Assembly (NCBI GenBank): GCA_016872645.1
Contig: VGZH01000040.1
Location: 1-50,230 of the forward strand
DNA length: 50,230 nt
Direction of reading: 5' to 3'
Source of the DNA: Planctomycetota bacterium
GTDB lineage: Bacteria; Planctomycetota; Planctomycetia; Planctomycetales; Planctomycetaceae
The notes under the pieces were generated by a model. The model worked only from the letters and a program-made list of their open reading frames with translations. It did not search any database and was not told the DNA's origin. The first letter of the stretch is position 1; every line of letters starts with the position of its first letter. Position numbers and translations under genes: made by a program. Below, piece by piece: positions 22,367 through 48,360 of this stretch.

Positions 22367-22741
22367 ATGGCAGTTCGAGGCATTCGCGGGGCGATCAGTG
22401 TGTCGGCCGACACCAAACCGGAAGTCCTGGCCGCAACGCGCGAACTGCTCGAAGAATTGCTGCGAGCCAACAGCCTTGAAGGGCACTTCGATGACATCGC
22501 TTCCGCCATCTTCACGACGACGCGCGACCTGACCTCCGCCTTCCCGGCCGAGGCGGCTCGAGGGCTGGGGATGAGTGCCGTCCCGTTGCTGTGCGCGACC
22601 GAAATTCCCGTTGCCGACAGTTTGCCCCGGTGCATTCGAGTTCTGTTGCACGTCAACACCGACAAGACTCAAGCCGAAATGGTTCACGTTTACCTGCGCG
22701 ACGCCAAACGCCTGCGACCCGATGTGAAGAGTGCCCAGTAG
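22367..22741 (+). CDS. aroH: Chorismate mutase, AroH type
   Basis: This 124-aa enzyme converts chorismate to prephenate for Phe/Tyr synthesis. It matches the monofunctional trimeric AroH family, as in Bacillus subtilis, which is about 127 aa. The expected active-site residues line up within one position: Arg-7 (VRGIRGA), Cys-76 and Glu-79 in LLCATEIPV, Arg-91 in [10 protein letters not shown], Tyr-109 in HVYLRDA. The ATG at 22367 has GGAG eight bases before it and starts exactly where the family starts; an upstream in-frame ATG at 22328 would add 13 unlikely residues. Its stop codon TAG is part of the GTAG that opens a REPIN-like repeat. Confidence 0.94.
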
Positions 22742-22818
22742 GTCAGGCTTTCCTGCCTGACCCGAATGGGCCGGCGACGGCGATCTTTGATCGGCTCAGT
22801 CTGGAAAGGCTGGCCTAC
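22738..22818. repeat. REPIN-like element overlapping the aroH stop codon
   Basis: The left half 22738-22761 is GTAG plus a perfect palindrome (GTCAGGC, loop TTTCCT, GCCTGAC). Read on the other strand, the right half ends at 22818 as GTAGGCCAGCCTTTCCAGACTG, a related but eroded copy. The first GTAG spans 22738-22741, and its TAG is the stop codon of aroH. The next gene starts 17 bp after the element. Confidence 0.72.
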
Positions 22819-24536: not shown

Positions 24537-24543
24537 ACTTTGC

Positions 24544-24621
24544 AGTGCGGTGCGTTAGCGGCGATTCGGTTTTTTGGATCGCTTTGCCGAATGATCCAAA
24601 GCGTTGCTCACACACCGCACT
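24544..24621. other. Highly structured intergenic segment between convergent genes
   Basis: Perfect outer arms AGTGCGGTG (24544-24552) and CACCGCACT (24613-24621) enclose two interleaved pairs. ATTCGG (24564-24569) pairs with CCGAAT (24587-24592). TTTGGATC (24573-24580) pairs with GATCCAAA (24593-24600). The order of the arms fits an H-type pseudoknot inside an outer stem. It lies between the stops of two convergent genes, so a bidirectional terminator or RNA 3'-end stabiliser is the simplest role. No classical T-tract follows the outer stem. Confidence 0.55.
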
Positions 24622-24626
24622 TCAAA

Positions 24627-40797: not shown

Positions 40798-40857
40798 GGA
40801 GGATGGGCACTCTTGCCCGCCTCCTCCCCAACGGACGGGCAAGAGTGCCCATCCTCC
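40798..40857. repeat. REPIN-like element with GGAG ends
   Basis: The right half, read on the minus strand, is GGAGGATGGGCACTCTTGCCCGTCC, a GGAG followed by an 8-bp imperfect palindrome around CTCT. The left half from 40798 is the same sequence with small changes. The two are inverted with about 11 bp between them. It lies 12 bp after the carbamoylase stop and next to the ferredoxin terminator. Confidence 0.7.
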
Positions 40858-44530: not shown

Positions 44531-45853
44531 ATGGCCATCCAATTTAATTGCCCCTACTGCACCGTCACCATCCAAGTCCCCGACAACGCCGCTGGCAAGA
44601 AAGGGACGTGTCCGCAATGCGGAACGAAAGTTCTCGTTCCGCTTCCGAAAAACTCGCCCCCACCAGTGACGGCTCCAGCGCGAGGGCCTGAACCTACTCA
44701 GACAGGGGCCTCGCCGAACTTCGCCGTACCTGCCGCCCCAATGTTCGCACCGCAACCGACTATGCCGATGGTCGGAACTCCTCCAGCGCCCGGTATGCCG
44801 TTCAGATTCGATCCTCAGCAACCGCTGCAAGCAGCTCCGGGATACGCCACACCGTTCGGTTTCACTCAGACACCACCATTCGTCCCAGCACCGCCGATAG
44901 TGTTGAATTCCGAATCTCCGACGGTTCCGAATCACTCTTCCAAGAAAAAAAAGCAACGGGGAAACCCCGTTCTGCCGGGAGTCATTGCAGTCCTGGTCAT
45001 TGTGATCGGCGTTGGAGCATTCATCTTCTTAAAGCCCGGCGTGAAGCCGAATCCGCTGAGCGGCACGCTCACGGCAACGCGTCTTCCGAACGGCAAGCTG
45101 CAGCCGGCGATCGTGCATCGCGACTGGCTCGAAGGCATTGACGAAGAGACCGTCACTGACGTGCTCAAGCAAATGGAGAAACGGACGGTCACACTTCGCA
45201 GCGATGCGGTCGTGCTGAAATTTCAAGGAGTCGCCGAAGGGATTAAGGTCACCGTCACTCCGGGATTGCACGGCGAATTGGTTGCGGTCGATGTCAGTAG
45301 CCACAAGGCGATCAGTAACTGGCAACAAAAGCAGGGAGTGAAGCTCAGCGACCGCCACCAGAAGGAACTGATCCGCGCAGCTAAATCGTTGATTCAGGAA
45401 TGGGCCAAGGCTGAAGCCGCTGGCGAGAAGAAACTGGACTTCAGCCGCTTTCACGACAGTCTGGGACTGGCCGCGTTGACATCCGGCCTGGGTTCGGAAG
45501 CCGTCGCGATTATTGACCGTTTGCCGCACAGTTGCATCGCCGAACAACAAGGGTTGCTCTATTTCTTGCTCCCTCCGGCGACCGATCATTTCAAGCTGCA
45601 AGGTCGCGAAGACGCCAAAGGCGTCGCCGTGTTCCCCGGCCGATTCGTCGTTAAAGTCGAGGCCGACGGCTCCGCGAAGAAATCCGACAAGTCCAAGAAG
45701 AGCGATGACGAAACCGAAATGGCGGACGAAGAGGAAGGCGAGATGAAGACCAAATCTTTCGGCCGTCCCGCTCTCAATGACCCGGCCGCGATGGACGAGT
45801 CGATGCCAGAGAAGCCGACGACCAAAAAGAAGGCAATGAAGAATGACGAATGA
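44531..45853 (+). CDS. Zinc-ribbon protein with single membrane segment
   Basis: This 440-aa protein starts with a zinc ribbon: FNCPYCTVTIQVPDNAAGKKGTCPQCGTK, with CPYC and CPQC at residues ~7-31, as in many planctomycete proteins. A Pro-rich linker (residues ~35-135) leads to a Lys-rich patch (KKKKQR) and one membrane segment (VLPGVIAVLVIVIGVGAFIFL, about 148-168). The soluble C-terminal domain is alpha/beta and unrecognised. The last ~65 residues are charged, Lys/Asp/Glu-rich, and look disordered. Topology is likely ribbon inside, C-terminal domain outside. No Shine-Dalgarno site is visible; a C-rich tract precedes the ATG. The next gene overlaps its last 11 bases. Confidence 0.82.
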   Translation: MAIQFNCPYCTVTIQVPDNAAGKKGTCPQCGTKVLVPLPKNSPPPVTAPARGPEPTQTGASPNFAVPAAPMFAPQPTMPMVGTPPAPGMPFRFDPQQPLQAAPGYATPFGFTQTPPFVPAPPIVLNSESPTVPNHSSKKKKQRGNPVLPGVIAVLVIVIGVGAFIFLKPGVKPNPLSGTLTATRLPNGKLQPAIVHRDWLEGIDEETVTDVLKQMEKRTVTLRSDAVVLKFQGVAEGIKVTVTPGLHGELVAVDVSSHKAISNWQQKQGVKLSDRHQKELIRAAKSLIQEWAKAEAAGEKKLDFSRFHDSLGLAALTSGLGSEAVAIIDRLPHSCIAEQQGLLYFLLPPATDHFKLQGREDAKGVAVFPGRFVVKVEADGSAKKSDKSKKSDDETEMADEEEGEMKTKSFGRPALNDPAAMDESMPEKPTTKKKAMKNDE

Positions 45854-45924
45854 GAAACGAGCAACTGAGAATGCGGAGTGGTATCACAGCACCGCAAGCC
45901 AGAGGAATTCGTCATTCGTCATTC
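45841..45924. repeat. Inverted GAATGACGAATGA repeat at a gene junction
   Basis: GAATGACGAATGA at 45841-45853 is matched by TCATTCGTCATTC at 45912-45924, preceded by GGAATTCG; the motif TCGTCATT recurs again just after. The repeat spans the end of the zinc-ribbon gene and the first ~27 codons of the next frame. Confidence 0.62.
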
Positions 45925-46901
45925 GACAATCGTCATTGGTAATTCTCTGGCTCTTCGCCACTCCGCTCGCCGCCCAGGATCACGTCGTCCTGCAAACGGA
46001 AGGTTCGACCAGCCGAGTGACGATGCCCTGTCAGATCGTGGACTACACCGGCGAACGGATCACCGTGCTGTTCAAAAGCGGGGTTCCGCCGAAGTCGTAT
46101 CCCGCCGAACAGGTCATCGAAGTTCGCACCGCGTGGCTCGAATCGCACGAACAGGGCCGCAAGCTGCTGGCCGACCGCAAAGTCGATGAAGCGCTCCGAG
46201 CCTTGCAAGAGGCTCTGCTCTCCGAAAAGCGAGCGTGGGTCCATCGCGAAATCCTCACTCTGCTGATTCGAGCTTCGCTGCGAAATGGAGATCGAGCCTC
46301 CGCCGGGACACGATTCCTGCAACTCTTGGAGAGCGATCCCACGACGCGGCAGTTCGGATTGATCCCACTGGTCTGGGCGGCCGAGTCCGTCTCCGGCGCT
46401 GCCAGGTCACAGGCCCATGAATGGCTGAAGCGGGAATTGGATGCTGCCCGACTGCTCGGAGCCAGCTTACTGCTCGACGACGCGACCAACGGCGATTCCG
46501 CTGCGCAGGAACTGCAAGTCCTCCAACGCAGCACCGACGATCGAGTCCGTTCGCTCGCGCAGGCTCAATCCTGGCGACTGAAGCTGCGAGCGTTGGAAGT
46601 CGGCGACCTCGAACTGAATCGCTGGGAGACTCGCATCCACGACATGCCCGCATCGCTGCGCGGCGGTCCGTCGTATCTGCTCGGCCGAGGACGGACGATG
46701 CGCCGCGAGCACGATCGCGCCGCAACCGCACTCTTGTGGACTTCGTTGATGGACGACGGCGACGCTCGCCTCGCCGCACGCGCCGGCGTCGAAGCGGCCC
46801 AATCACTCAAACGACTCGGCCAACCTGATGACGCTCGACGCTTGTTGCAAGAAATCGCCAGGCGCTTCCCCGATACCGAATTCGGCGAAGCCGCCAAGTA
46901 G
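45843..46901 (+). CDS. Exported helical repeat protein, start uncertain
   Basis: The open frame gives 352 aa. The first ~32 residues (MTNEKRATENAEW...RNSSFVIRQSS) come from the repeat at 45841-45924 and do not look like true protein. A hydrophobic segment follows at once (LVILWLFATPLAAQ), ending in an AxA-like cleavage site. The real start may be the TTG at about 45936, or translation may run on from the overlapping upstream gene. The mature part has a small beta domain (VTMPCQIVDYTGERITVLF, PPKSYPAEQVIEVRT), then TPR-like helices: GRKLLADRKVDEALRALQEALL and AGVEAAQSLKRLGQPDDARRLLQEIARRFPDTEFGE. Its TAG stop is part of a GTAG repeat end at 46898. Role unknown. Confidence 0.75.
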   Translation: MTNEKRATENAEWYHSTASQRNSSFVIRQSSLVILWLFATPLAAQDHVVLQTEGSTSRVTMPCQIVDYTGERITVLFKSGVPPKSYPAEQVIEVRTAWLESHEQGRKLLADRKVDEALRALQEALLSEKRAWVHREILTLLIRASLRNGDRASAGTRFLQLLESDPTTRQFGLIPLVWAAESVSGAARSQAHEWLKRELDAARLLGASLLLDDATNGDSAAQELQVLQRSTDDRVRSLAQAQSWRLKLRALEVGDLELNRWETRIHDMPASLRGGPSYLLGRGRTMRREHDRAATALLWTSLMDDGDARLAARAGVEAAQSLKRLGQPDDARRLLQEIARRFPDTEFGEAAK

Positions 46902-46945
46902 CGTTGGAGTGCGGGGTGTCAGCAACGCACTCCAAAGGACGCTAC
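46898..46945. repeat. 48-bp REPIN-like palindrome joining two convergent stop codons
   Basis: The element starts GTAGCG and ends CGCTAC. It has a perfect 10-bp inner stem, TTGGAGTGCG (46904-46913) with CGCACTCCAA (46926-46935). The plus-strand gene ends AAG-TAG at 46901 and mnmE, on the minus strand, ends AAG-TAG at 46942, so each terminal GTAG holds a stop codon. It probably also acts as a bidirectional terminator. Confidence 0.75.
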
Positions 46946-48360
46946 TTCCCGATGCAGAACTTGCTGAAGACGCGATCCAGCACATCGTCCGTGTAGACCG
47001 CCCCGACGATGTGGCCGAGAGGTTCCAAAACCTCACGTAGTTCGACGATCACCAAGTCGTCGCTCAATCCGAGTGCCGCCGCCTCGGCCGTGCGTTCGAG
47101 AGCCTCTCTTGCGGCGAGCAAACTGTTCTGGCACCGGGCCGCCGTCATGCCGAGCCATTGCCGCCGTCCGCGCGATTCGGCAGAGACGAGTTCGCTCAAT
47201 CGAGCACACAAATCATCGAGTCCCAAACCGTCGAGTGCGCTGACGGTCACTCGGACGCCATCGCCCGAGTGCTCCGAGGAGGGCGTCGAAGCTAAGGTCA
47301 CACAGTCCGCCTTTGTGCCGACGACCAAGATCGATCGCTGCTCACGACGCAATTCCGCGACCAATGACTCGTCAATCGTCGAGTCGGCCGACAGATCGCG
47401 ACACCAGACGATCAAGTCCGCCTGCTGCCACTGCTCATGCCGACGCTGCTGAGCCACCGCTTCAATTCCGCTCGTCGTCGCATCCCAACCGGCCGTATCG
47501 ATCAGGTCGACGTGCAAGTCGTCTCGATCGAGCGGCACGCACAGATAATCGCGTGTCGTACCACTGGTTTCAGAGACCAACGCGGCCGATTGCCCCGTAA
47601 GCACGTTGAGCAGCGTGCTCTTTCCGGCATTCGGCAATCCGGCCAAGACAACTCGCGGACGAGACGAACTCGTGAGTCGCCGCGAGGCTTGATCGCACAA
47701 CTCGGCAACCGACTGTTGAGCGGCTGCCACTCGCGACATCAATTGCTCATGTGAGACGAACTCGATGTCCTCGTCCACGAAGTCGAGGCCCGCTTCCAAT
47801 TCGGCCAGCAGGTCAAGCAAATCCGATCGCAGCCGCGCGATCTCGTGCGAGATGCCTCCGGCGAGTTGCCGCAGCGCTTGATCCAGTTCGACATGATCCG
47901 CCGCGTCGATGACGCCGAGCACCGCTTCGGCCTGCAATAAATCGAGCCGCCCGGCCAAGAACGCTCGCAGCGTGAACTCCCCCGGCCGAGCCGCTCGGCA
48001 ACCGCTGCGGCACAACTGCGTCAACAACGCCTCCAGCAACGGCGGCGAGCCGATCAAATGCAACTCCGCCAACGGCTGCCCCGTATAACTCTGCTTCGTC
48101 GGCCACAACCCAACCTCAACCGGCAAACGCAACCCATCTCGAAACGGCGCGTCGTCCCACGGCACATCGACCACCAATCGCCATTCTCCCGGATGCCACT
48201 CCGCGCGAGTCGCCTTCCGCCATCGCTCGGCATCGCGCGGAACAAAGTGCTGCTCCAGCACGCGCCGCACGTCGCCGCCACTCACGCGCACGATCCCGCG
48301 CCCTCCGGCTCCCGGAGCCGAAGCCAGCGCCGCAATCGTGTCGTCAAGATGCAGAGTCAT
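46942..48360 (-). CDS. mnmE: tRNA modification GTPase MnmE
   Basis: This 472-aa enzyme, with MnmG, modifies the wobble uridine (U34) of certain tRNAs. The N-terminal TrmE domain starts DTIAALASAPGAGGRGIVRVSG. The helical part has ARPGEFTLRAFLAGRLDLLQAEAV. The G domain is intact: GLPNAGKST (G1, near residue 243), SGTTRDY (G2), DTAGWD (G3) and TKAD (G4). It ends with the family C terminus FCIGK, whose Cys is the conserved catalytic residue. Length is normal. It uses a TAG stop supplied by the GTAG at the end of the repeat at 46898-46945. Confidence 0.97.
   Translation of the reverse strand: MTLHLDDTIAALASAPGAGGRGIVRVSGGDVRRVLEQHFVPRDAERWRKATRAEWHPGEWRLVVDVPWDDAPFRDGLRLPVEVGLWPTKQSYTGQPLAELHLIGSPPLLEALLTQLCRSGCRAARPGEFTLRAFLAGRLDLLQAEAVLGVIDAADHVELDQALRQLAGGISHEIARLRSDLLDLLAELEAGLDFVDEDIEFVSHEQLMSRVAAAQQSVAELCDQASRRLTSSSRPRVVLAGLPNAGKSTLLNVLTGQSAALVSETSGTTRDYLCVPLDRDDLHVDLIDTAGWDATTSGIEAVAQQRRHEQWQQADLIVWCRDLSADSTIDESLVAELRREQRSILVVGTKADCVTLASTPSSEHSGDGVRVTVSALDGLGLDDLCARLSELVSAESRGRRQWLGMTAARCQNSLLAAREALERTAEAAALGLSDDLVIVELREVLEPLGHIVGAVYTDDVLDRVFSKFCIGK

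Follow-up and report, generated by a model that had tools for sequence, protein, structure and literature searches.

The palindrome of 48 bases at positions 46898-46945 of the window, by which we mean the whole analysed stretch of 50,230 nucleotides, very probably contains a copy of a repeat family with the core TTTGGAGTGCG that was inserted between two pre-existing convergent gene ends, both of them Lys-TAG, and that supplied neither of the two stop codons. For this element we observed its family and the copy number of that family, the lack of GTAG, the conservation of both protein ends, and a repeat-free relative with AAG-TAG on both sides. A sequence-only reading of the same DNA had described a GTAG...CTAC element of 48 bp. 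Its letters and both AAG-TAG stops are in place, and both ends of the palindrome coincide with the convergent TAG stops, but the repeat proper comprises only the 33 bp at 46904-46936. This part is a solo, fully palindromic copy of the family (TTGGAGTGCG-GGGTGTCAGCAA-CGCACTCCAAA), a form closed on itself of which a similar one was found at C39. The extended palindrome at 46898-46945 is composed of this repeat and the two mirrored gene ends (no strand is assigned to either feature). On the plus strand, the gene of a TPR-like protein (45843-46901; TPR matches weak) ends AAG-TAG at 46896-46901 with the stop at 46899-46901. On the minus strand, mnmE (46942-48360) also ends AAG-TAG, its stop at 46942-46944 following the conserved CxGK end of the protein. 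The family core is separated from the stops by 2 nt on one side and 5 nt on the other. The GTAG...CTAC frame reflects two Lys-TAG gene ends that face each other and arises without any repeat.

Folded as a whole, the palindrome reached -28.4 kcal/mol with a z of -6.45, and none of 200 shuffled sequences folded as well; the inner 33 bases alone gave -20.6 kcal/mol and a z of -6.41. A known RNA family was rejected for the element, since an Rfam scan of 46500-47300 gave no matches at the gathering score. A bidirectional intrinsic terminator was rejected as well, since the sole T-tailed hairpin in 46700-47100 lies at 46858-46873 on the minus strand, away from the element (0.4 expected from shuffles). 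The proposed course would be that a single unit of a REP-like hairpin family with many copies landed in the short spacer between two convergent genes, which would end AAG-TAG independently of the repeat and whose facing ends would read GTAG...CTAC unaided. Both stops and the short spacer would be older than the insertion, the family would have moved by transposition, and the repeat would add a strong hairpin just past both stops while supplying neither stop codon and setting neither protein end. An effect of this hairpin, if any, may concern the mRNA 3' ends.

The window is part of contig 40 of a 5.76-Mb genome, which its relatives place among the planctomycetes. The core TTTGGAGTGCG showed 90 exact matches (43+47) in this genome, compared to 0+0 for the reversed control, and the nine relatives contained 17 to 103 matches each, with 1 to 6 for the control. 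The usual unit of the family is TTTGGAGTGCGGTGTGTCAGCACCGCTTTGGAT, whose inner stem changes in pairs: a perfect inner stem of 6 bp is present in 45/90 matches and occurs in six paired versions, including GCGGTG/CACCGC with 29 matches as well as GCGGCG/CGCCGC and GCGGGG/CCCCGC with 6 each. Inverted pairs (REPIN/BIME), in which the core occurs at each of the two outer ends of an intergenic region, are found for example in L024, L181 and L188. With the surrounding genes called by our own script and not by a standard caller, the family is mostly extragenic, as 69 of the 90 matches lie outside called genes and 21 inside; some matches without a hairpin, several of these 21 among them, may be due to chance.

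The sequence-only reading had taken both TAGs as part of a terminal GTAG of the repeat, and a list of all genomic copies had been proposed in order to look for overlaps of GTAG with stop codons. After inspection of the flanks of all 90 matches, none was found with GTAG directly 5' of the core, and the neighbouring stops are mixed: 30 matches lie at most 15 nt past a gene end, with TAG in 12, TGA in 10 and TAA in 8 cases, and 29 of these 30 sit 0-5 nt past the stop. Neither observation agrees with repeat-borne stops. The share of TAG beside the family (12/30) was nonetheless a little higher than among the other called genes (38/177; one-sided Fisher p 0.03), which counts against our own reading. 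The window itself offers a control in the form of a decayed two-unit copy at 24537-24626 (no strand assigned), which fills the 90 bp gap between two convergent genes with TGA as the stop of each.

In general, the TTTGGAG (TTTGGAGTGCG) family packs intergenic regions wall to wall (L001, L003-L032, L144-L191 and the window). Stop-facing ends were found 0-5 nt after the stop in 29/34 cases. This would fit a selection that places or keeps the hairpin just past stop codons, either for protection of the mRNA 3' end or for control of the translation of the upstream gene, an explanation to which we give some credit without favouring it. However, 26/35 start-facing ends are at most 30 nt away from the start codon, 18 of them at 5-11 nt, and the only T-tailed hairpin near the junction is the one away from the element. 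The packing is equally tight at gene starts, so that both the stop-facing and the start-facing copies are accounted for by survival in compact spacers. The start-facing ends leave little beyond the space for a ribosome-binding site.

The junction was compared in nine close relatives, whose mnmE is 81-85% identical to that of the window. The mnmE stop is TAG in eight of them and TGA in one; the convergent neighbour gene was found in eight and ends in TAG (5), TAA (2) or TGA (1). The relative L038 is free of a repeat and shows AAG-TAG on both sides with 10 bp between the stops and a fold z of 0.03. A comparison with the mnmE 3' end of relatives lacking the repeat had been proposed together with the sequence-only reading, and AAG-TAG ends in such a relative had been named as the outcome that refutes it; by the ends of L038, the reading is therefore refuted on its own terms. 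L035 is repeat-free as well: its mnmE side reads AAG-TAGCGT, with the window letters AAGTAGCGT common to both, and the other gene ends in TGA. At the same junction, L036 contains a pair with the window family's own core, and L034 and L037 contain a pair with the core CTGGAGTGCGG. The alignment of the neighbour protein reaches the last residue (352) in all eight relatives with the gene. MnmE ends CxGK in 77/79 loci, the other two ends being unread due to a contig end (L076) and an alignment stopping short (L097); this survey covered 79 of 80 loci, L081 being excluded for a match that goes no further than residue 341. Since the end of both proteins falls on the same residue in the relatives, the window repeat sets no protein end, contrary to the earlier proposal that it defines both. 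Hence the tempting but wrong picture of one repeat writing two stop codons is removed, and convergent Lys-TAG ends are seen to be able to mimic a GTAG-framed REP.

In three of the relatives (L033, L040, L041), a GTAGGTC repeat coincides exactly with the mnmE stop, and in L039 a GTAGCCCTGTCGC hairpin of another GTAG type is located there. The two TAGs in the window could accordingly be regarded as relics of an older, lost GTAG REPIN, with the present repeat having come between them later. Since most forks inside the genus are open in the mnmE trees, an older and later replaced GTAG repeat retains a small share of probability as the origin of the TAGs, but we consider it unlikely. The CG directly after the mnmE stop, common to the window, L035, L036 and L037, fits an old spacer rather than GTAGGTC. 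Furthermore, among stops of the own genome without an immediate hairpin, G precedes TAG in 21/42 and TGA in 42/104 cases, which is no clear relic signal; as a genome-wide explanation of TAG stops, GTAG relics were rejected for this lack of a clear excess of G before TAG.

That the window repeat brought both TAG stops and replaced older ones is highly improbable: although both stops lie inside the extended palindrome, and true GTAG families seem to act in this way at the L306 gene (GAG-TGA followed 1 or 5 nt on by a GTAG repeat, one tag being GAAG, in four relatives, compared to GAG-TAGGTC directly in G000, G069 and G068), the 0/90 matches with GTAG, the in-window copy between two TGA stops and the presence of both stops in L038 refute it for the window family, unless L038 lost a repeat.

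The proposed insertion of a TTTGGAGTGCG-family copy between existing gene ends has to be distinguished from what true GTAG families do. The further suggestion of the sequence-only reading, that GTAG-ended repeats settle at stop codons, does not apply to the TTTGGAGTGCG family, but it does to the GTAGGTCAGGC family. The pattern GGTCAGCCTTTCCAGGCTGACC (at most two mismatches) was matched 24 times in the own genome; in three relatives the counts were 171, 175 and 242. The GTAGGTC family was inspected at 65 loci of a single genome (G068), which has 175 matches. At these loci, GTAG was present at 92/98 outer ends of the GTAGGTCAGGC family. Where an end faces the 3' end of a gene, the TAG is the stop codon in 35/48 cases; no end lies 1-4 nt away, and five lie at a distance of 5-7 nt. 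A p-value based on uniform offsets was left unused, since the TAG of the repeat terminates every gene that enters the repeat in this frame. The window contains one such case: in a GTAGGTCAGGC-family REPIN at 22738-22818 on the plus strand, the GTAG (22738-22741) includes the TAG (22739-22741) at which a type I chorismate mutase gene stops, a true in-window example of a GTAG repeat on a stop codon. An inverted pair of the GTAGCCACGTTCGCC family at 1871-1937 (no strand assigned) has its left GTAG 19 nt past the stop of the upstream called gene, and not on the stop.

Within the window and the mnmE regions of the nine relatives, mnmE excluded, an immediate hairpin was found at 3/12 GTAG stops compared to 0/79 TGA or TAA stops. 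Two of these three are the mnmE neighbour genes of L033 and L041, which leaves the chorismate mutase case as the only one unconnected with the site used to select the loci. The corresponding values for the repeat-selected loci of the own genome were 4/25 for GTAG stops, 0/21 for other TAG stops and 3/149 for TGA and TAA stops.

To compare orthologous gene ends in nine genomes, 14 query genes of G068 were picked for length and score from the 35 with a repeat-TAG stop. Matches of at least 60% identity that reach within 15 residues of the tail end were kept, resulting in 118 of 123 rows; the five dropped rows, from L325, L337 and L344, were second hits of one genome or of the same place. The stop lies at the same residue in 89/118 ends. 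An immediate hairpin accompanies 33/65 GTAG stops compared to 0/53 other stops, counts which stem from related sequences (14 genes, 9 genomes). One series is the L305 gene, which ends in CTG-TAG or TTG-TAG in 9/9 genomes, always at the same residue, and where the hairpin test detected three unlike GTAG hairpins at the stop, a fourth being recognised by likeness to GATGGGCACTCTTGCCCG. Two or three families were also found at the stops of the L254, L274 (both strands), L278 and L284 genes. For the L255, L271, L290 and L306 genes, those orthologues that lack a repeat at the stop terminate in TGA or TAA, an argument for a repeat-supplied TAG in these genes. Without a detected hairpin, 36/85 orthologues end in TAG, or 30/79 after subtraction of six with a decayed GTAGGTC repeat. 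The latter value is above the 8/84 in the window and the mnmE regions of the relatives (mnmE and its neighbour excluded), and nearer to the 46/195 in repeat-selected loci of the own genome. Judging from the sequences of these rather distant relatives, part of the TAGs are probably older than the repeat, and others probably arrived with it.

One could tentatively go further and propose that NNG-TAG stops in this genus are recurrent landing pads for RAYT-mobilised GTAG REPINs, with an existing GTAG used as junction and the protein left unchanged by unlike families in different species, but we hold this to be rather doubtful. According to the biochemical work, as far as the excerpts available of it go, GTAG is a guide inside the REP and the cut site is CT, in one system also CA (PMC8266576), which does not speak in favour of GTAG as the landing site; the comparison with IS608 draws on the same source (PMC8266576). 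Stop codons that are common to many species and held by different GTAG families represent natural filled and empty sites, which can be used as a test of how REPINs choose their landing place.

Compared to the known systems of GTAG REPs or REPINs with RAYT (TnpA_REP), as the excerpts of PMC2817692, PMC8266576 and PMC3733652 present them, the window family is alike in being a many-copy short palindrome that is mostly intergenic, lies near gene ends and often forms inverted pairs, and GTAG-flanked Y1 genes are present at L187 of the own genome and at L262 of G068. It is unlike them in that its hairpin has no 5' foot tetranucleotide GTAG or GTGG, as the 0/90 matches with GTAG directly before the core indicate, and in that the single Y1_Tnp match of the genome adjoins another family, GTAGGGTCGGCTCCCGCCGAC. 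A paper of 2013 described GTAG REPs as a frequent source of TAG stops (PMC3733652), and in this general form the finding is, according to the text available from that paper, already in print. The TAG-providing termini reported there correspond to the GTAGGTCAGGC family, with its 35/48 ends in G068 and one case in the window; the stops at 46898-46945 differ from them in not being made by the repeat. Beyond this published pattern, we found that a given stop codon can carry unlike GTAG families from one species to the next, a pattern of which the excerpts searched (PMC2817692, PMC3686654, PMC6006769, PMC8266576, PMC12306157 and PMC3733652) contained no report. Different REP classes are described as flanking orthologous RAYT genes in the available part of PMC3686654. 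Furthermore, REPs within 15 nt of stop codons reduce translation according to the accessible part of PMC12306157; the window hairpin is similar to these in position, starting 2 and 5 nt past the two stops.

As for mobilisation, the own genome showed one Y1_Tnp match above the Pfam cut-off, located in L187 and flanked by the GTAG-type GTAGGGTCGGCTCCCGCCGAC family; a RAYT gene flanked by the TTTGGAGTGCG family was not found in this genome. At L187:2500-3900, the Y1 (IS200-like) transposase gene has GTAGGGTCGGCTCCCGCCGAC inverted pairs on both sides, and the neighbouring gene appears dnaJ-like by eye. The Y1_Tnp gene of L262 in G068 (Pfam E 5.4e-9) has a GTAGGTCAGGC/GTAGGTC repeat on both sides and may be regarded as a putative RAYT gene on the basis of this match and the flanking repeats. 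Neither of the two transposase genes is linked to the window family. At L262:380-1330, the stop of the RAYT-like gene is itself the TAG of the flanking GTAGGTCAGCC repeat.

Two minor observations concern the assemblies and the window. Matches in G062:C99 and G063:C100 showed equal coordinates and identities, as though a single contig had ended up in the bins of both assemblies. At 40798-40857, the window contains a perfect 22-bp inverted repeat, GGAGGATGGGCACTCTTGCCCG, the core of which recurs directly behind TAG stops in the relatives L322 and L324 as GTAGGATGGGCACTC.
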